A stretch of 64,000 bases of DNA from NCBI RefSeq assembly GCF_020535405.1, contig NZ_CP085036.1, forward strand, positions 2,666,001-2,730,000. Reading direction: 5' to 3'. Positions 41,385-49,114 of this stretch are shown here, one piece after another. Source of the DNA: Antiquaquibacter oligotrophicus. GTDB taxonomy: Bacteria > Actinomycetota > Actinomycetes > Actinomycetales > Microbacteriaceae. The notes beneath the pieces are model-generated. The model saw nothing but the letters and a program-made list of their open reading frames with translations. It made no database searches and was not told the DNA's origin. Numbering within the stretch: position 1 is the stretch's first letter; each line of letters starts with the position of its first letter. The position numbers were made by a program, and so were the translations under genes.

Positions 41385-42179
41385 TTAGGCTGCGACGCCG
41401 TACTTCTTCATCGAGGTTTCCACGATGGTGAGGCCGTCGAGGCCCGGCATCCGGGAAATGTGCTCATCGAGCTTGCGGATCTCTCGCAGACCCTCCTCAC
41501 CGGCGAAGAGATGCCCCATGACGTGGGTGACGTCGTCCGGTTCCATGATGCTCGAGCCGACCGGTCCCCACGCGTTCTTGAGCGCGAAGCGCGCGATGAC
41601 CTGCGCCTTTTTGCTTTTGGCGAGTCGCTCACGGGCCTGCGTCGCATAAAACGCGACGTGTCGTGCTTCCTGCTTGGCGATGCGGCGAAGGAGCTCGGCG
41701 AGCACGGGGTGCTGCTGCAGTTCGGCGAGGCGGTTGTAGGCCGCAACCGCAGACCACTCGTTGGCAGCGCCCCAGATCATGTGAACCGCGATGAAGTCTT
41801 TGCCGACGATGTTTCCAAGCAACGACTGCTTGATCGGATCGAGGCGATCCTTCCAACCGAGCTTCAGTCGTGTCGCCTTGAGTTGGTCGAAGTCCACGGT
41901 GACGCCGTGCTTGGCGAGCACCGCGGCGAGAGCTTCGCCATGCCAGAATTCCTCGCGATTCCACATCGTCATGAACGCGGAGACATCCGCCTCCTTGTGC
42001 GACGGGGTGACGAGGAGATCGCGGAGGTAGCAGACGGTGTGGTACTCGACGTCGCACATGTACCGCAATGTTGCGAGGGTCTCGGGCGGCAGCGGATTGG
42101 TCTCGAACTCGTCGAAGTCGAGATCCTTCCAGGCGACGCTGACCGAGGTCTCGGTGTACTTGTCGATATCGAATGCCAT
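41385..42179 (-). CDS. Acyl-ACP desaturase-like diiron protein
   Basis: A 264-residue ferritin-like protein. The six ligands expected of acyl-ACP desaturases are all present: E45, E77 and H80 in REEFWHGEAL, E141 in NEWSAVAAYNRL, and E171 and H174 in EARHVAFYATQA. The REEFWHG segment resembles EENRHG of plant desaturases. Such enzymes use O2 at a diiron centre to desaturate or hydroxylate acyl chains. It is the last gene of the minus-strand operon, 16 nt after the acyl-CoA reductase. In this setting it could oxidise an alkyl or acyl chain of the ether lipid. I chose ATG 42179; an upstream extension would overlap the reductase gene. Confidence 0.85.
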   Translation of the reverse strand: MAFDIDKYTETSVSVAWKDLDFDEFETNPLPPETLATLRYMCDVEYHTVCYLRDLLVTPSHKEADVSAFMTMWNREEFWHGEALAAVLAKHGVTVDFDQLKATRLKLGWKDRLDPIKQSLLGNIVGKDFIAVHMIWGAANEWSAVAAYNRLAELQQHPVLAELLRRIAKQEARHVAFYATQARERLAKSKKAQVIARFALKNAWGPVGSSIMEPDDVTHVMGHLFAGEEGLREIRKLDEHISRMPGLDGLTIVETSMKKYGVAA

Positions 42180-42195
42180 GGCTGCACGCGGTCGG

Positions 42196-44490
42196 TTAAG
42201 ACGCCCGACCCGCTCCTTCCGCGATCGTGGCTTGCTCGGGTAGTTCGGTGCGGGGGGCGGCCGGGATTGGTCCAGCCCCGCGCCTCCAGTCAAGCACGCT
42301 CCAGTGCTTCTCTCGCGCATGACGATAGAGCCGGATGTCCGGATTGACCGCGCTCGGATGCCCGAGCAACTGCAGCCACACGAGGTCTGCGTGGCTGTCG
42401 CCGTACCCGTAGGACTGGCTCAAGTCGATGTTGTTCTGTGCCGCGTAGTGACGAAGCCACGCAGCCCTGGCCTCGTCGACGAGCGGCGGGTCAGCGAGGA
42501 ACCCGGTCAGTTTTCCGTCGCGCTCGTGCATCCGGCCCGCTACGACCTCGTCAAAGTAGGGAACGAATGGCTCGACCATGAGGTCGATGGTCCCCGTCAC
42601 GAGAATTGTGCGGTGGCCGGCATCCCGATGCTCCTGCACTCTCTGAAGCGCCTCGGGAAGCGAGTGTCGAAGCATCGCTCGCCCGAATCGCCCGTCGACT
42701 TCACGGCGTATCTCGGCAACTTTGAAGCCCTGGTAGCGGCGCATGAAGGTGCGGATGAACTCACCGCGGTCGCGGCGTTCGGCCTTCCAGTACTTCCTGA
42801 GCGAGAAGGCGAAGTTCGCGAGATCGTGTGCGAAGCGCTTGCGTGGCACGGTGTTGGACCAGAGCTGGAGGTACTGCTCGACGAGGTTCGAGTCCAGCAC
42901 CGTGCCCTCGAGGTCGAAGATGGCAACCACGTCGTCTCGGACCGGAAGGGCCCTTACCGCTTTCTCACGCGCCGCGGGTCGTTTACCGAAGGCGCGTGTG
43001 AGAGTCGTCACGGCGGGGAAGTGAATGGTCTGAAAGTAGGTGGGCCAATCGAGCTCGGTGACGTCGAAACCTTCGGACTTCTGCGTCTCCTCGGGAAGCG
43101 AGTGCAATAGGGCTCGGGTGTTCGTGTCGTCGAAGATGATCTCGGTCTGCACGTACGCGCGGTAGAGCTCGGTGAATGCGCGGAGCTGGCTGAGGCCGTG
43201 TTGCCCCTTCGTCACGGTGTCGAGCCAGCGTCGGGTGCGAGGTGTGGATGGCAGTCGTTCGATGACACGTTCGGCGCGTTCGGCCTGACGCTCTCGCCTG
43301 ACGAGGGCACGCTCGACCTTGTGTCCACCGGGGAAGCGCCAGCGTGGCACCGCGATGTCGCCCTTCTCGTCGGGCAGCGGGTTGGTGGTGAAGTAGGTGT
43401 GCACGTTCTCGTACATCTGGTGGAACGGGAGCGGGTTCGATTTGCCCGAGACAACCTGGAAGTACTTGGGTTCCTTCGGGACTGCGGGTCGGGCGGCGAC
43501 CGCGAGGGTCGCGTTGACGACAAAGTCGACCGGGATGATGTCGAGCACCGAGTCGGGGAGACCGGGGAAGTCGGGCAGTTGACCGCGGCCGTAGGCGATG
43601 ATGAGCGGGTCGGCGACCTTGAAACCGTCTATCCAACCGGGGTACGGGTGACGGAGGGCGCTCTCGATGATCGAGGGCCTGACGATCGACAGGCGGTGGC
43701 CGGCATCCGACCACAATTCCTCGGCCGCACGCTCGGCGAAGGCCTTCGTGAGTGTGTAGACGTCGGTCCATCCAAGGCTCTCCGCCCTGGTGCGCCCGAA
43801 GTCGACTAGCCGTTCTCGCACCCAGTCGGCGCGAGCGGCCTCCGCGAACTGAGCGACGGCCTGCGGTCCGGTCTTGCCGTGACGTGCCTTGGCGACGGCA
43901 AGGTGTCGGCGCAGTGCCTCCGGCTTACGCGATTCGAGTTCCACGCGTTCACGGGCCGAGCGCGCGGCGTCGTATTCGGCGCGCCAGTCGACCTCGTGAG
44001 TCAGCGATGCCTCGGGCACGATGCCCTTGCGGATCCCGCCGACGTAGGCCGTCGAGATGTGTACGACATGCGGGTCGCTGCCGCTCGCGAGGAGGGCTCC
44101 GTACACGCCGTGTGCTCCGCCGACATTGGTGTCGAATGCCTCGTCGATCGGCGGATCGAATGACACGGTGGACGCGCTGTGAATGACGACGTCGAGGTCT
44201 GAGGGAAGTGCGCCGACGTTGCTGAGGCTTCCGTCGACCACTCTCACCCGATCCGCGAACTGGCGACGAGCTTCTTCCTCGCCGACCTCATCCATCCAGC
44301 GTCGGAATACGGGCTTGCGGAGGAGGTTCTCCAGGCGAGCCTGCGCGGTCTGGCTGCCCTTCCCGCGCACGAGAACGGAGATTCGTGTGCCCGGATGCGA
44401 CGACAGAAGTCGTTCGAGGATGGCTTGCCCCACGAAGCCAGTGCCGCCCGTGAGGAACACGTGCTCGTTGGTGAGAATGGGTGAGGTCAC
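42196..44490 (-). CDS. Fatty acyl-CoA reductase fused to a HAD-IB phosphatase
   Basis: A 764-residue fusion. The N-terminal half is a 'male sterility' NAD-binding_4 reductase that converts acyl-CoA to fatty aldehyde or alcohol: TGGTGFVG (14-21), HSASTVSFDPPIDEAF, and the SDR pair Y245/K249 in YTLTK. The C-terminal half (about 515-740) is a HAD phosphatase: FDLEGT with nucleophile D526, ILVTGT, and YGYGDSHAD with D698 and D702. The usual second Asp of motif I is E528. The GTG start at 44490 overlaps the upstream stop (GTGA). In the cluster it would supply the fatty alcohol for alkyl-DHAP synthase, while the HAD part could dephosphorylate a lipid intermediate. Confidence 0.88.
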   Translation of the reverse strand: MTSPILTNEHVFLTGGTGFVGQAILERLLSSHPGTRISVLVRGKGSQTAQARLENLLRKPVFRRWMDEVGEEEARRQFADRVRVVDGSLSNVGALPSDLDVVIHSASTVSFDPPIDEAFDTNVGGAHGVYGALLASGSDPHVVHISTAYVGGIRKGIVPEASLTHEVDWRAEYDAARSARERVELESRKPEALRRHLAVAKARHGKTGPQAVAQFAEAARADWVRERLVDFGRTRAESLGWTDVYTLTKAFAERAAEELWSDAGHRLSIVRPSIIESALRHPYPGWIDGFKVADPLIIAYGRGQLPDFPGLPDSVLDIIPVDFVVNATLAVAARPAVPKEPKYFQVVSGKSNPLPFHQMYENVHTYFTTNPLPDEKGDIAVPRWRFPGGHKVERALVRRERQAERAERVIERLPSTPRTRRWLDTVTKGQHGLSQLRAFTELYRAYVQTEIIFDDTNTRALLHSLPEETQKSEGFDVTELDWPTYFQTIHFPAVTTLTRAFGKRPAAREKAVRALPVRDDVVAIFDLEGTVLDSNLVEQYLQLWSNTVPRKRFAHDLANFAFSLRKYWKAERRDRGEFIRTFMRRYQGFKVAEIRREVDGRFGRAMLRHSLPEALQRVQEHRDAGHRTILVTGTIDLMVEPFVPYFDEVVAGRMHERDGKLTGFLADPPLVDEARAAWLRHYAAQNNIDLSQSYGYGDSHADLVWLQLLGHPSAVNPDIRLYRHAREKHWSVLDWRRGAGPIPAAPRTELPEQATIAEGAGRAS

Positions 44491-45296
44491 CGTCGGGTGG
44501 CCTTTCGGATCAGGCCGAGTCCGGATTGACCGGGCAGCGAATCGATGCGGGAGTCGAGGTCGTCGACAACCTCGCGGGAGTCGAAGAGGTAGTCGAAGAA
44601 GAAGCGAGTTTCGGCTTCTGGCTCGGCCTTCGCGCCGATTGGCCACGGTGTCTTGGCAAGCCGTCGGCGGGTGAGGGAGCGAGCGCGAGGCGACTCGGTG
44701 AGCCGGAAGCGCGCTTGTGCCTCGAAAAATTCGAGCTGTCGAGCCTTGACCTGCCGAAACTGGTCGGTGACGACGGTCAGTTCCGGTCGGTTCTCGACCG
44801 CGCTCAGCCTTGCGTACGCGGTCTGGGTGAGCCACTCGTCGACGGTGCCGAGGCTCATATGCACGGCGATCATGGGAACGCCGATGATGTTCGCGACAAT
44901 GGACTCGCGGATTGTGCGCTCAACCGGTGTCCGGAAGACGGCGTCCGACGTGGCTCCCTCTGGCTGATGAGCCAGGAGAATCTGCTGCAGGGCGTCGGCG
45001 ATCCAGTACTTCTCGTACGCCCACGTGACGAGGAACGCTGTGATGCGAGCGTCCTTGTGGGTCGCCGTCACGAGCACACTGCGGAGGTGTGTCATCGTCG
45101 CTCGCTCGATCACCTGGAGATAGGCCAGCGCGCGAAGCGTGTCCGAGGAGAGGGGAGCCTCGCGGAACAGGCCCAATTCCAGGTCGCTTCGGAAGCTTCC
45201 GTGGGCTGTGCGGGCGAACTCCCGAACGTCGAAGTCGGGGGCCGGGTAGGCGGCGTCGCGACCGGACTCGATAGAGGTCTCCGGCAGTTCACGCAT
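44487..45296 (-). CDS. Degenerate diiron-like paralogue of the 41385 protein
   Basis: A 269-residue protein that aligns along its length with the 41385-42179 protein (LRSVLVTATHK versus LRDLLVTPSHK; VHMSLGTVDEW versus VHMIWGAANEW; EAQARFRL versus TQARERL). E64 and E154 are kept, but four ligands are replaced: K96 and I99 in EKYWIAD, K184 and Q187 in KARQLEF. It therefore should not bind two irons. The reading frame is intact and is translated first in the operon, with GGAGGA 7 nt before ATG. A pseudoenzyme partner of the active paralogue is the simplest reading. Confidence 0.82.
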   Translation of the reverse strand: MRELPETSIESGRDAAYPAPDFDVREFARTAHGSFRSDLELGLFREAPLSSDTLRALAYLQVIERATMTHLRSVLVTATHKDARITAFLVTWAYEKYWIADALQQILLAHQPEGATSDAVFRTPVERTIRESIVANIIGVPMIAVHMSLGTVDEWLTQTAYARLSAVENRPELTVVTDQFRQVKARQLEFFEAQARFRLTESPRARSLTRRRLAKTPWPIGAKAEPEAETRFFFDYLFDSREVVDDLDSRIDSLPGQSGLGLIRKATRR

Positions 45297-45342
45297 CCGT
45301 CATTCCTCCGGCAGTCTTGGCGAGCATGCGCCAGTCTATCCG

Positions 45343-45371
45343 CCTTACGCTACGGGGGCCGTAGCGTAAGG
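45343..45371. promoter_or_regulatory. Palindromic operator in the divergent ether-lipid promoter region
   Basis: CCTTACGCTACGG (45343-45355) and its exact reverse complement CCGTAGCGTAAGG (45359-45371) surround GGG. The 13-bp arms and 29-bp span suit a TetR-family dimer pair. The right arm overlaps TAAGGT (45367-45372), the -10 of the plus operon, so bound repressor would block it. On the minus strand a -10 candidate TAGACT follows directly. The TetR gene at 48566 is the likely ligand. Confidence 0.75.
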
Positions 45372-45379
45372 TATCCACC

Positions 45380-46207
45380 ATGGCAACGGCTCTCGTGACG
45401 GGCGGAACTTCCGGGATCGGAGCCGAGTTCGCCCGCCAGTTGGCTACGCGAGGATTCGATCTCGTGCTTGTGGCACGGGACAGAGAACGACTGGATGTCG
45501 CACAAGGCGAACTACATGCCGCAGCCGGCATATCCGTGGAGACGGTGCGGGCGGATCTGGCGGATCGCGAGGACCTCGCCCGTGTGGCGGCGATCATCGC
45601 CGACCCGGACCGCGAGATCGACTTCGTTGTGAACAACGCAGGTTTCGGCATCCACACGCCTCTGGCTACCCTCGACACCTCGGTGCACGAGCACGGTGTG
45701 GACGTCATGGTTCGCGCGGTCCTCGTCTTGTCGGCGGCCGCCGCGCGCACGATGTCGGGGCGCGGCCGGGGGACGATCCTCAACGTCTCGAGCCTGCAGA
45801 GCCAGCTCACGACGGGCTCGTACTCGGCGATCAAAGCCTGGGTCACGTCCTTCACCCAGAGTCTTGCGGTGGAACTCAAGGGCTCGGGCGTCCGCGTGAC
45901 GGCGCTCCTGCCCGGGTGGGTTTCGACCGAATGGCATTCCCGCGCTGGAGTGCGAACGAGTTCCATCCCCGACTGGCTGTGGACGACGCCGGAGGCGGTT
46001 GTCACGAGCGCACTGCGCGACGCCGAGCGTGGTCGAATCGTCTCCATACCCACAGTTCGGTACCGAGTGCTCGGGTGGTTTGCGCGCTACCTGCCGCGAC
46101 GCACGGTGCGGTGGATTTCGGGAAAGATCAGCGCACGACGTCGCGAGCCAGCCCAATCGACGCCGAGCTCCGAACATCCTGTGACAGCGGATGGAGATGC
46201 AGTATGA
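45380..46207 (+). CDS. Short-chain dehydrogenase/reductase, acyl/alkyl-DHAP reductase-like
   Basis: A 275-residue classical SDR: GGTSGIG (8-14), NNAGFG, NVSSLQSQ with the catalytic Ser, and Y148/K152 in YSAIK. It belongs to the group containing yeast Ayr1-like acyl-DHAP reductases and mycobacterial keto-reductases; exact substrate is not determinable. It opens the plus operon; TAAGGT at 45367-45372 lies 7 nt before ATG, giving a leaderless message. It overlaps the acyltransferase gene by four bases (ATGA). In an ether-lipid scheme it would reduce alkyl-DHAP to alkyl-glycerol-3-phosphate. Confidence 0.85.
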   Translation: MATALVTGGTSGIGAEFARQLATRGFDLVLVARDRERLDVAQGELHAAAGISVETVRADLADREDLARVAAIIADPDREIDFVVNNAGFGIHTPLATLDTSVHEHGVDVMVRAVLVLSAAAARTMSGRGRGTILNVSSLQSQLTTGSYSAIKAWVTSFTQSLAVELKGSGVRVTALLPGWVSTEWHSRAGVRTSSIPDWLWTTPEAVVTSALRDAERGRIVSIPTVRYRVLGWFARYLPRRTVRWISGKISARRREPAQSTPSSEHPVTADGDAV

Positions 46208-46899
46208 CACGGGACAGATTCACCTCGAGGTCGATGGCGGCGGTGCGGTTTGTCGCTCAACGCGGGCTCCTCAAACCTTTGGTCTGGTCGCTCGTAAGTG
46301 TGGATGTGGTCGGTCGAGACCGCATCGCGGCCCTGGATGCCCCGTTCATCGTTATTGCGAATCACTCGAGTCATCTCGATGCGCCGCTCGTGCTCGGTGC
46401 CCTTCCTCGTCGCCACGCTCGTTACCTCGCGGCCGGGGCTGCCGCCGATTACTTCTTCGACGTCGCCTGGCGTAAGTGGCTCACAACACTGTTTTTTAAT
46501 GCGTTCGCGGTGGAGCGCAATTCCGAGGGCAAACGTTCCGGTGCATCGCGCTCCCTCCTCGAGCGGAAGGTCCCGCTCCTGCTCTTCCCGGAGGGTGGCC
46601 GATCGCGTCACGGCGAGATGGGTCGCTTCAAGCCCGGCGCCGCCGCGCTGTCCATCGCCAGTGGTGCACCGTGTGTGCCCGTCGCCCTCGTCGGGGCGAG
46701 TGCCGCCATGCCCCGTGGCGTGAACTGGCCAAAGCGGGGCCGGATGCCCGTCTCCGTCGTCATCGGAGAGCCCATGATCGCCCGCGAGGGCGAGAGCACA
46801 GAAGACTTCTCGCGACGCCTCGCAGCCGAGGTTCGCGACTTGCACGAATCAGTGCTGCCGATGCCCGTTCGGCAGCACGCCAAGGAAGGACGTACATGA
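46204..46899 (+). CDS. PlsC-type 1-acylglycerol-3-phosphate acyltransferase
   Basis: A 231-residue LPLAT-family acyltransferase. The catalytic HX4D is H54-D59 in NHSSHLD, and the phosphate-binding block is FPEGGRSR (128-135). The C-terminal VPVALVG and VSVVIGEPM are typical. It would acylate a glycerol phosphate or DHAP backbone at the membrane. ATG 46204 overlaps the SDR stop; its own stop overlaps the next start (ATGA). Confidence 0.9.
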   Translation: MTRDRFTSRSMAAVRFVAQRGLLKPLVWSLVSVDVVGRDRIAALDAPFIVIANHSSHLDAPLVLGALPRRHARYLAAGAAADYFFDVAWRKWLTTLFFNAFAVERNSEGKRSGASRSLLERKVPLLLFPEGGRSRHGEMGRFKPGAAALSIASGAPCVPVALVGASAAMPRGVNWPKRGRMPVSVVIGEPMIAREGESTEDFSRRLAAEVRDLHESVLPMPVRQHAKEGRT

Positions 46900-48572
46900 C
46901 CGCGGTCAAGCACATGAAGTGGTGGGGCTGGGGGCGCGATGGCGTCGGATTCCATCACGAGGACAAGCCGGGTTTTGCACCCTTCGTGCTGAACGCCGTC
47001 GGTCTGGATCTCGCGACGGCGACACCGGTCGAGGAGCCTGCCTTCGACGAACTGACTGTCCCGGCGAGCACCATCGGGGAGGCGTTGCGCACGTCTCTCG
47101 TGTCGATCGTGGGCGAGGAGTACGCCACGACGGATGACCTCGTTCGGGTCATCCACACCTACGGGAAGAGCTTGCGCGACTTGGTGAGAATCCGCGCCAA
47201 CTCGATCGAGCGCGCGCCCGACATCGTGGTGTATCCGGCTGACGAGAAGGAAGTTCAGGCCGTCGTCGACGCAGCCGTCGCGGCGGATGCCGTCATCATC
47301 CCGTTCGGCGGAGGAAGCAACATCGCCGGGAGCCTCGAGCCACGGGCGGGGGAGTCGCGTGTCGTCATCTCACTCGACCTCGGCCGGCTAGACAGACTGA
47401 TCGAGATCGACGCCGATTCCGGACTTGCACGCATCCAGGCCGGCGCTCAGGGACCGGACCTGGAGGAGCAGCTCAACGCTCGCGGTTGGACGATCGGCCA
47501 CTTCCCCGACAGCTTTACCCACTCGACACTCGGTGGGTGGGTCGCGACGCGGTCCTCTGGAATGCAGTCCGACAAGTACGGCGACATCGCCGACATCACC
47601 CGCGGCCTTCGTGTTGTGCGTCCGGGCGGTGTGCTCGTGCTGCGACCGCTTCCCAGCACGTCGAGCGGACCGAGTATTCGCGAGATGATTCTCGGCAGCG
47701 AGGGTCGTCTCGGCGTGATCACCGAGGTCACCGTTCAGGTGCACCGTAAGCCCGCCAAGCGGGACGTGTACGCGTACTTCTTCCCGACCTTCGAGGCGGG
47801 CATCCGTGCCATGCAGGACATCTCAGAATCGGATGCCGCGCCTTCCATTACCCGTATCTCCGATGCACCAGAGACCGGTTTCTCTCTCGCGACAAGTAAG
47901 GACCGTAAGGGTTTCGACAAGTTCCTTGCGGGTACCGTGCTGCCGGGTCTCATGCGGTCGAAGGGATGGGACCTCGAGAAGATCTGTCTCTCGTTCATCG
48001 GCTACGAGGGCTCGGTCCCTCACGCGAAGCGCCAGAAGAAGCTCGTTGATTCGATCGTGAAGAAGCACGGCGGCATGGGGGTTGGCACCGGCCCCGGCAT
48101 CCTCTACGACCAGAAGAAGTTCGATACGCCGTACCTGCGGGATTTCCTCCTCGATCGGGGAGCGGCCGGCGACGTGTCCGAAACCGCGGCACCGTGGTCG
48201 AAGCTCATCCAGGTGCACGACAACACGATCGCGGCAGCCCAGGCGGCATACAACCAGCTCGGCATCAAGGGCTGGATCATGTCGCACATGTCGCACTCGT
48301 ATCACTCCGGTGCGTGCCTCTACTTCACGTTCGCCTTCGTGTTCGGGGACGACCCGCTGGGCGAGTACGACGTCGTCAAGAAGGCGATCCAGCAGGCCTT
48401 CGTCGACAACGGCGGAACCATCTCCCACCACCACGGTGTCGGTCGGGAGCACTCCCCATGGCTCGAGGAGGACATTTCGCCCGAGGGTGTCGCCGTCATG
48501 GGTGCACTCTTCGGCGGTGCCGACCCCGGTAGCAACCTCAATCCCGGAAAGATCATCGGCGCGGGCTACTGA
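46896..48572 (+). CDS. Alkyldihydroxyacetonephosphate synthase (AGPS) homologue, FAD-dependent
   Basis: A 558-residue flavoprotein that matches AGPS along its whole length. It exchanges the acyl chain of acyl-DHAP for a fatty alcohol to form the ether bond. The AGPS start MKWWGWG is at 7-13. FAD-binding segments are IIPFGGGSNIAGS (GGG at 138-140) and GGWVATRSSGMQSDKYG. R320 (ITRISDAPET), Y469 (YHSGACLYFTFAF) and H511-H513 (SHHHGVG) align with the catalytic Arg, Tyr and triple His of mammalian AGPS. GYEGSVPHAKRQKK is also AGPS-like. CAAGGAAGGA precedes ATG 46896. Alternatives such as GlcD-type hydroxyacid oxidases lack the MKWxGWG and HHH signatures together. Confidence 0.9.
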   Translation: MTAVKHMKWWGWGRDGVGFHHEDKPGFAPFVLNAVGLDLATATPVEEPAFDELTVPASTIGEALRTSLVSIVGEEYATTDDLVRVIHTYGKSLRDLVRIRANSIERAPDIVVYPADEKEVQAVVDAAVAADAVIIPFGGGSNIAGSLEPRAGESRVVISLDLGRLDRLIEIDADSGLARIQAGAQGPDLEEQLNARGWTIGHFPDSFTHSTLGGWVATRSSGMQSDKYGDIADITRGLRVVRPGGVLVLRPLPSTSSGPSIREMILGSEGRLGVITEVTVQVHRKPAKRDVYAYFFPTFEAGIRAMQDISESDAAPSITRISDAPETGFSLATSKDRKGFDKFLAGTVLPGLMRSKGWDLEKICLSFIGYEGSVPHAKRQKKLVDSIVKKHGGMGVGTGPGILYDQKKFDTPYLRDFLLDRGAAGDVSETAAPWSKLIQVHDNTIAAAQAAYNQLGIKGWIMSHMSHSYHSGACLYFTFAFVFGDDPLGEYDVVKKAIQQAFVDNGGTISHHHGVGREHSPWLEEDISPEGVAVMGALFGGADPGSNLNPGKIIGAGY

Positions 48573-49114
48573 CGCGGCGCAAGCCCCGGCCAGAGCAGGT
48601 CGAGCACACGCTCGACCCAGTCGTCGTCGGTCGGTCGTCCACGGATGAGTTCCGAGATGACCGCTCCCATGAGGATCGTGAGGGTCAGCTCCACGTCGAG
48701 GTCGGAGCGCAACTCGCCGCGTTCAACGAGCGTGTGGAGCCCGGCACGTAGTGGCTCGATGCTCGTGCGTGCGATACCGAGGAGCGACGCGCTCTGATCG
48801 GGATCGTTAGCCGACATCATCGCGGCGAGAGTTCCCCGTCCGATCACGTTCTCGATGGCGTCGCGTGAATGGCGCAGGGTCCAGCGCAAAGTCTGTTGTG
48901 CGTCCAGATCGGCTGGCAACGAAATGGGTATCGACGCGCTCGCGACGGCGGCCGAGAGCAGTGCTTCGCGGTTGTCGAAACGTCGGTACAGAGTCGTCTT
49001 CGCGACGCCGGAGGCCACCGCGACAGATTCCATGCTCACGGCGTGTGGGCCGCGAGTGCGCAAGAGGTCCAGAGCGGCACGGTAGATCCGATCGTCTACC
49101 CGACTGAGCCCCAT
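48566..49114 (-). CDS. TetR family regulator, candidate repressor of the ether-lipid divergon
   Basis: A 182-residue regulator. The N-terminal HTH is at about residues 25-45 (MESVAVASGVAKTTLYRRFDNREALL), followed by an all-helical ligand domain. It is convergent with the AGPS gene (7-bp overlap). TACCAT (49121-49126, minus strand) lies 6 nt before ATG, predicting a leaderless transcript. GGTAGCGAAGG beside that -10 resembles one arm of the 45343 palindrome minus one base, which might allow weak autoregulation. A fatty acyl ligand is likely by analogy, not shown. Confidence 0.88.
   Translation of the reverse strand: MGLSRVDDRIYRAALDLLRTRGPHAVSMESVAVASGVAKTTLYRRFDNREALLSAAVASASIPISLPADLDAQQTLRWTLRHSRDAIENVIGRGTLAAMMSANDPDQSASLLGIARTSIEPLRAGLHTLVERGELRSDLDVELTLTILMGAVISELIRGRPTDDDWVERVLDLLWPGLAPRQ

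Follow-up and report, generated by a model that had tools for sequence, protein, structure and literature searches.

We analyzed a gene cluster in a 64,000-nucleotide stretch of the Antiquaquibacter oligotrophicus genome (contig NZ_CP085036.1, positions 2,666,001 to 2,730,000; hereafter the window), which is part of a 2.9 Mb one-contig genome. Seven open frames, all translating without inner stops, occupy positions 41385–49114 of the window. The minus-strand arm reads, in order of transcription, from DES2 (44487–45296, 269 amino acids), through FAR-HAD (42196–44490, 764 amino acids, GTG start), a fatty acyl-CoA reductase fused to a HAD-IB domain, to DES1 (41385–42179, 264 amino acids), a soluble diiron protein of the acyl-acyl carrier protein (ACP) desaturase fold; DES2 and FAR-HAD overlap by 4 bases, and 16 bases separate FAR-HAD from DES1. 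The plus-strand arm holds SDR (45380–46207, 275 amino acids), a short-chain dehydrogenase/reductase, a PlsC-type acyltransferase (46204–46899, 231 amino acids), and AGPS, an alkyldihydroxyacetonephosphate synthase homologue (46896–48572, 558 amino acids), with a 4-base overlap at each junction. A TetR-family regulator gene (48566–49114, minus strand, 182 amino acids) is convergent with AGPS, the two sharing 7 bases at their ends, while the 83-base gap between the arms (45297–45379) is the common start, and thus the shared control region, of both. Given the 4-base overlaps and the 16-base spacing, translation is probably coupled within each arm. An earlier note on this DNA had described six contiguous coupled genes, one shared control region, and a closing TetR gene, all of which was confirmed from the open frames.

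The families which that note had proposed for FAR-HAD, SDR, PlsC, and a full-length AGPS homologue are secure by Pfam and structure matches. FAR-HAD combines NAD_binding_4 (162 bits) and HAD (115 bits) on a single chain, with the solved fatty acyl-CoA reductase 7eoz aligned over residues 6–494 (E 4.8e-48) and the HAD-IB domain over residues 523–719. SDR matched adh_short (136 bits), its family and motifs being clear, and is a predicted acyl/alkyl-dihydroxyacetone phosphate (DHAP) reductase; PlsC matched Acyltransferase (70 bits) and carries NHSSHLD and FPEGGRS motifs; and the regulator matched TetR_N. AGPS matched FAD_binding_4 and FAD-oxidase_C, and aligned with solved AGPS structures (Dictyostelium and mammalian) over most of its length (2uuu, E 6e-114, residues 78–554; 4bby, E 2e-84, residues 25–545 of 558). 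C-x-Y and HHH, which we take to be the AGPS active-site motifs, were found in 99/99 and 97/97 copies, respectively, and both were invariant, as were FAR YxxxK, SDR YxxxK, and PlsC HxxxxD, across the 97–108 copies read (motif, operator, and diiron-ligand counts include some genomes twice). A hydroxyacid-type flavin oxidase forming no ether bond would belong to the same fold family as AGPS, i.e., that of the GlcD-like oxidases, and weak GlcD matches do exist. Such an activity is nevertheless exceedingly unlikely, as the GlcD model scored 121.5 against a cut-off of 567.9, the AGPS structures outscored the next flavoenzyme by >200 bits, and the window's genome already holds a separate GlcD-like gene. 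By homology, the FAR, AGPS, reductase, and acyltransferase of the aerobic plasmalogen pathway are thus all together in the cluster, the FAR and AGPS assignments being secure.

For the HAD part, the earlier expectation of a dephosphorylation stood only as far as the domain itself. The nucleophile Asp of motif I (residues 526–528 of FAR-HAD) never varies, but in 107 of 108 copies Glu takes the place of the second motif residue (D-x-E rather than D-x-D), so that ordinary phosphatase action is uncertain and should not be assumed. The phosphotransferase ThrH also carries D-x-E, and the HAD part may likewise be a phosphotransferase.

DES1 and DES2 had both been called acyl-ACP-desaturase-like, which held for the former and less so for the latter. 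DES1 barely passed the Pfam acyl-ACP desaturase model PF03405 (23 bits against a cut-off of 22.7) and showed the acyl-ACP desaturase fold in the fold test, at 13–20% identity to the ten desaturase rows compared. Its six predicted diiron ligands (E45, E77, H80, E141, E171, and H174, numbered from Met) were found in 140–141 of 141 copies at each position. DES2 is a paralogue 30% identical to DES1, matched no Pfam family in a scan of its translation, and is without these ligands: the ligand His was seen in 0/119 copies, the second-helix Glu in 1/119, and the fourth-helix Glu in 0/118. Since DES1 keeps the ligands and DES2 does not, the two look like an enzyme and its predicted pseudoenzyme partner; the "diiron pair" earlier proposed to oxidize the alkyl chain is therefore not a pair of diiron proteins, and only DES1 retains the full site. 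A fatty acyl-CoA reductase encoded beside a ferritin-like diiron oxygenase could also suggest alkane or wax synthesis of the cyanobacterial AAR/ADO type, in which case AGPS would use a different substrate. We consider this very improbable: in the DES1 comparison the ADO-like oxygenase ranked with R2-type proteins, under the plant acyl-ACP desaturases, while AGPS retains its motifs and is, with PlsC and SDR, a usual neighbor.

We then evaluated how consistently these genes occur together. Across 299 sampled Microbacteriaceae genomes, DES1 was detected in 98 at E ≤ 1e-3 (92 strong) and a strong AGPS in 85: 84 genomes carried both, 8 DES1 only, 1 AGPS only, and 206 neither. The single strong-AGPS genome without DES1 is only 85% complete. 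We excluded from the positives six DES1 hits that were weak (E > 1e-10), along with two weak AGPS hits (~40% identity), only one of which lay in a genome with DES1. A second, ~40% identical AGPS-like protein was seen in two Microbacteriaceae genomes (G142:C2:320553-322127 and G215:C1:2072672-2074150); one of the two has DES1 but not the usual AGPS, which this protein might replace there. Class-wide, the DES1 profile matched 41 of 394 genomes at E ≤ 1e-10. The full six-gene set in divergon order was found in 34 of 40 Microbacteriaceae loci drawn from positive genera (several represented by two or three loci), five of these with genes inserted between DES1 and FAR-HAD. Among 81 further loci, i.e., the best 80 of 209 from a named genome collection plus one plasmid, 65 held all six genes, L154 in a different order; the other 16 comprised five Jiangella loci holding only DES1, eight holding only the DES pair (including Naasia, with AGPS and FAR-HAD elsewhere in the genome), one extra DES1 copy, and two loci cut by contig ends. 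Because the six genes recur together in 34/40 and 65/81 loci, they form, judged by gene context, a real functional unit rather than a chance grouping, and the genome-neighborhood check suggested in the earlier note thus came out in its favor.

The unit also appears to move as a whole. We built 28-row trees for DES1, AGPS, and FAR-HAD, and in every one the copies from a Streptomyces plasmid and a Streptomyces metagenome-assembled genome (MAG) were sisters and stood beside Schumannella inside Microbacteriaceae, with fork support of 88/82, 96/90, and 100/99 in the three trees. This shared placement fits a transfer of the whole unit together between genera. Streptomyces sp. NBC_01450 (L122) carries the six-gene unit on a linear plasmid of 2.35 Mb that is predicted to be mobilizable. 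A typical Microbacteriaceae cluster was also found in a MAG labeled Acidobacteria (isolate G2_35, L191), a bin that is probably mislabeled. By DES1, the closest named relative of the window's cluster is Salinibacterium soli (93%); next come records under the names Microbacterium, Rhodoglobus, and Salinibacterium. Some loci hold additional genes: the cluster of Subtercola lobariae consists of all six genes plus a LarA-like gene, a second PlsC, and, after DES1, a diacylglycerol-kinase-like gene (L197:9841-10938), as if alkylglycerol were re-phosphorylated. The LarA-like gene, with a lactate-racemase N-terminal domain (PF09861), lies inside the cluster beside PlsC and FAR-HAD both there (L197:6593-8128) and in a genome of the Jiangella family group (L105:10900-12966), with no apparent role. 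In the window, a scan of the flanking genes (a LacI regulator, a kinase-like protein, a Na/H exchanger with a TrkA-C protein, a glycosyltransferase, a second SDR, and a DUF3516 helicase) revealed no tie to ether lipids.

The shared gap contains a 29-base palindrome, CCTTACGCTACGGGGGCCGTAGCGTAAGG (45343–45371; core CGCTACG-N5-CGTAGCG from 45348). Among 39 loci with a TetR gene (any tblastn hit to the window TetR at ≥35% identity within the locus), 32 had this core in the gap, compared with 2 of 60 loci lacking TetR. These two loci (L149 and L150) are on short contigs ending, by spacing, near AGPS. Of the 40 core occurrences across 2.46 Mb of loci, 34 were in the gap and the other six ~100 bases before the tetR match. 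From this co-occurrence, we read the palindrome as the predicted TetR operator.

Given the AGPS and FAR homology and motifs, the co-occurrence, and the joint transfer, the claim that ether lipids are made here in air is well supported, and we regard aerobic ether-lipid synthesis as very probably the function of the cluster. We infer the following reactions and their order. FAR would convert a (branched) acyl-CoA or acyl-ACP to a fatty alcohol, an acyltransferase (the cluster PlsC or a housekeeping enzyme) would supply acyl-DHAP, AGPS is predicted to swap the acyl chain for the alcohol to form alkyl-DHAP, and SDR would turn this into alkyl-glycerol-3-phosphate. The cluster PlsC or a housekeeping PlsC would then acylate sn-2, and the HAD part, whether as phosphatase or phosphotransferase, would act on a phosphate for lipid head-group use. 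Held by metal-free DES2, DES1 would use O2 and its diiron site to desaturate the alkyl chain at C1′–C2′, yielding a vinyl ether; we would guess that a soluble intermediate, e.g., alkyl-glycerol-3-phosphate, is easier for a soluble desaturase than a membrane lipid. TetR bound to the gap palindrome would keep both arms repressed and would be released by a ligand that is perhaps an acyl compound. A plasmalogen is the likely end product, while for DES1 as the vinyl-ether desaturase, unrelated to CarF/PEDS1, the balance tips only slightly in favor. Overall, we lean with modest confidence toward an inducible, TetR-switched aerobic ether-glycerolipid pathway most likely ending in plasmalogen, with DES1/DES2 making the vinyl ether.

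Dimethyl acetals form from plasmalogens in acid methanol, and alkyl ethers give none. In the accessible table of the S. vilae description, four aerobic Subtercola species including S. lobariae show 6.9–17.0% iso-16:0 dimethyl acetal and 3.2–11.0% anteiso-15:0 acetal, with chains matching the branched acyl chains and unsaturated acids at most in traces (PMC5945732; three columns are quoted from older papers). All 12 genomes examined from the S. lobariae genus carried both DES1 and DES2. A second line of data comes from Kineococcus rubinsiae, for which gas chromatography–mass spectrometry indicated, in the part of the report available, that the MIDI system had named the anteiso-15:0 acetal "C14:0 2-OH", and acetals were taken as a sign of plasmalogens (PMC7472656). 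In excerpted tables, the peak of that name amounts to 4.2% in Glaciihabitans tibetensis, 17.0% in Frigoribacterium faeni, and traces in Lacisediminihabitans profunda and Lysinibacter cavernae (PMC7033078), and to 10.4% in S. boreus, 15.6% in S. vilae, 9.9% in S. frigoramans, and 3.9% in S. lobariae (PMC9287328). G. tibetensis holds the cluster (L200). L179 derives from a MAG named "Frigoribacterium" that belongs to the same genus as Lacisediminihabitans changchengi. Elsewhere in the accessible S. vilae data, Agreia has only low acetals and Frondihabitans none (PMC5945732).

Several observations weigh against a vinyl ether made by DES1. Genotype and acetal-type phenotype were matched at the species level in only two cases, S. 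lobariae and G. tibetensis. In available excerpts, Frigoribacterium adelgis, like F. faeni before it, has 14:0 2-OH and an anteiso-15:0 aldehyde/acetal side by side (PMC12823222); the two names are therefore not always one peak, and the reading of "C14:0 2-OH" as acetal may fail in some taxa. L. profunda has only traces of the peak in the table, yet DES1 is in 9 of 13 genomes of that genus, and Salinibacterium metalliresistens is described without acetals in an account limited to main acids. S. endophyticus lacks 14:0 2-OH in the accessible table, its profile being 76.7% summed feature 8, and the same source gives summed feature 8 (18:1) as 52.1% in S. lobariae and 40.4%, plus 30.2% 16:1, in S. 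frigoramans (PMC9287328), values at odds with the PMC5945732 table. Such high 18:1 would suit an acyl desaturase.

The DES pair also occurs away from the pathway, with no full AGPS and FAR-HAD in six genomes searched, including Leifsonia flava, Agromyces terreus, and A. allii. On the DES1 tree, the nine DES-only rows included belong to a single group of 12 rows (96/86), whose other three members have the full cluster, and the group as a whole is nested among cluster holders. DES1 can therefore act without the ether pathway, and in this group it must have another use or another supplier. In one DES-only genome (G107), DES1 lies ~4 kb from a contig end and AGPS may lie off the contig. Lone DES2-DES1 pairs were seen in Leifsonia flava, Leifsonia sp. 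Leaf264, Agromyces species, and Glaciibacter flavus (L177, L161, L173, L196, L178, and L184). In Jiangella, DES1 stands apart from AGPS and FAR-HAD, with one DES-type match per genome in the genus; in two genomes searched, AGPS and FAR-HAD were near each other and distant from DES1. DES1 adjoins a fumarase-type gene in two loci of the Jiangella group (L102 and L182). To our knowledge, moreover, the soluble acyl-ACP desaturases described so far act on ACP-bound acyl chains and not on ether lipids. The cluster might then make saturated alkyl-ether lipids only, with DES1/DES2 a co-regulated acyl-chain desaturase for membrane fluidity, which would agree with the DES1 fold, with the DES-only genomes, with the small anteiso-15:1 amounts reported in some members (PMC5945732 and PMC7033078, in part), and with >10% 18:1 in 4 of 5 Subtercola strains (PMC9287328, in part). 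We nonetheless find this alternative unlikely, since alkyl ethers would not yield the many acetals tabulated in Subtercola next to, at most, traces of unsaturated acids, and since DES1 is missing from only 1 of 85 strong-AGPS genomes, an incomplete one. The vinyl-ether product proposed earlier thus gains from the Subtercola acetals and the DES pair in that genus, and loses from the group with the DES pair but not AGPS and FAR.

If plasmalogens are made, the vinyl bond could instead come from a CarF/PEDS1 homologue or another enzyme, with DES1 doing something else. No match to the CarF/PEDS1 domain PF10520 was obtained in 22 genomes, but the search control was also negative (0/14), so this count does not establish the absence of CarF, a point against DES1 as the desaturase. 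By contrast, PF09989, presumably the domain of PlsA in the anaerobic PlsA/PlsR route, was absent from the same number of genomes (0/22) while its control matched 4 of 14. No other oxygen-using enzyme was a constant cluster member among the 40 + 81 loci, and, with PF10520 unmatched, we hold a different vinyl-ether enzyme to be improbable. A third, independently evolved vinyl-ether route, i.e., soluble diiron DES1 with metal-free DES2 in a TetR-switched divergon, unrelated to both CarF/PEDS1 and PlsA/PlsR and passed between genera as a unit, seems to us evenly poised.

The pathway logic is already known from animals and myxobacteria, as the accessible parts of two papers describe (PMC9131029, PMC9702350). 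The actinobacterial cluster, its switch, and the ferritin-fold candidate for the last step were not found among the matches listed in open-licence literature, in line with the earlier note, which knew of no described actinobacterial system with such a composition. The cluster is a candidate genetic basis for the acetals of aerobic actinobacteria, and, with DES1 and AGPS both required, it occurs in roughly three in ten of the sampled Microbacteriaceae genomes (84/299). The plasmalogen question in these organisms is now testable by a single deletion, and part of what taxonomic tables record as "C14:0 2-OH" may in fact be acetal. If the proposed role is true, DES1 would be a soluble, easily purified enzyme for vinyl-ether formation, whereas the known aerobic one is a membrane protein; if proved, it would add a third chemistry for this bond.

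Compared to known systems, the cluster shares FAR, AGPS, an SDR reductase, an acyltransferase, and an expected oxygen-dependent last step with the animal plasmalogen pathway (FAR1, GNPAT, AGPS, DHRS7B, AGPAT, PEDS1/TMEM189), but is built as two divergent operons with a TetR gene, holds no recognized GNPAT-type enzyme, and has as candidate desaturase not a histidine-box membrane protein but a soluble diiron protein of the ferritin fold, paired with a pseudoenzyme. Myxococcus xanthus elbA-E and MXAN_1676-1674 with CarF, in an obligate aerobe with iso-branched chains, similarly provide AGPS, FAR-like, acyltransferase, and HAD parts, but in different gene fusions and with the vinyl bond made by CarF, outside those operons, according to the accessible text (PMC9131029). 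The clostridial PlsA/PlsR anaerobic route makes the same final bond, and in Enterococcus faecalis, as in other facultative anaerobes, pls has a TetR-like regulator as its neighbor in the part of the paper available (PMC9702350); that route, in contrast, reduces diacyl lipids. DES1 resembles the plant acyl-ACP desaturases and M. tuberculosis DesA2 (1za0) in fold and diiron ligand pattern, yet differs in its low identity, its pairing with DES2, and a candidate role other than on acyl-ACP. Finally, the dimethyl acetals of Subtercola and Kineococcus, whose chemistry the accessible sources report without genes (PMC5945732, PMC7472656), are the phenotype expected of the cluster pathway, in aerobic actinobacteria.

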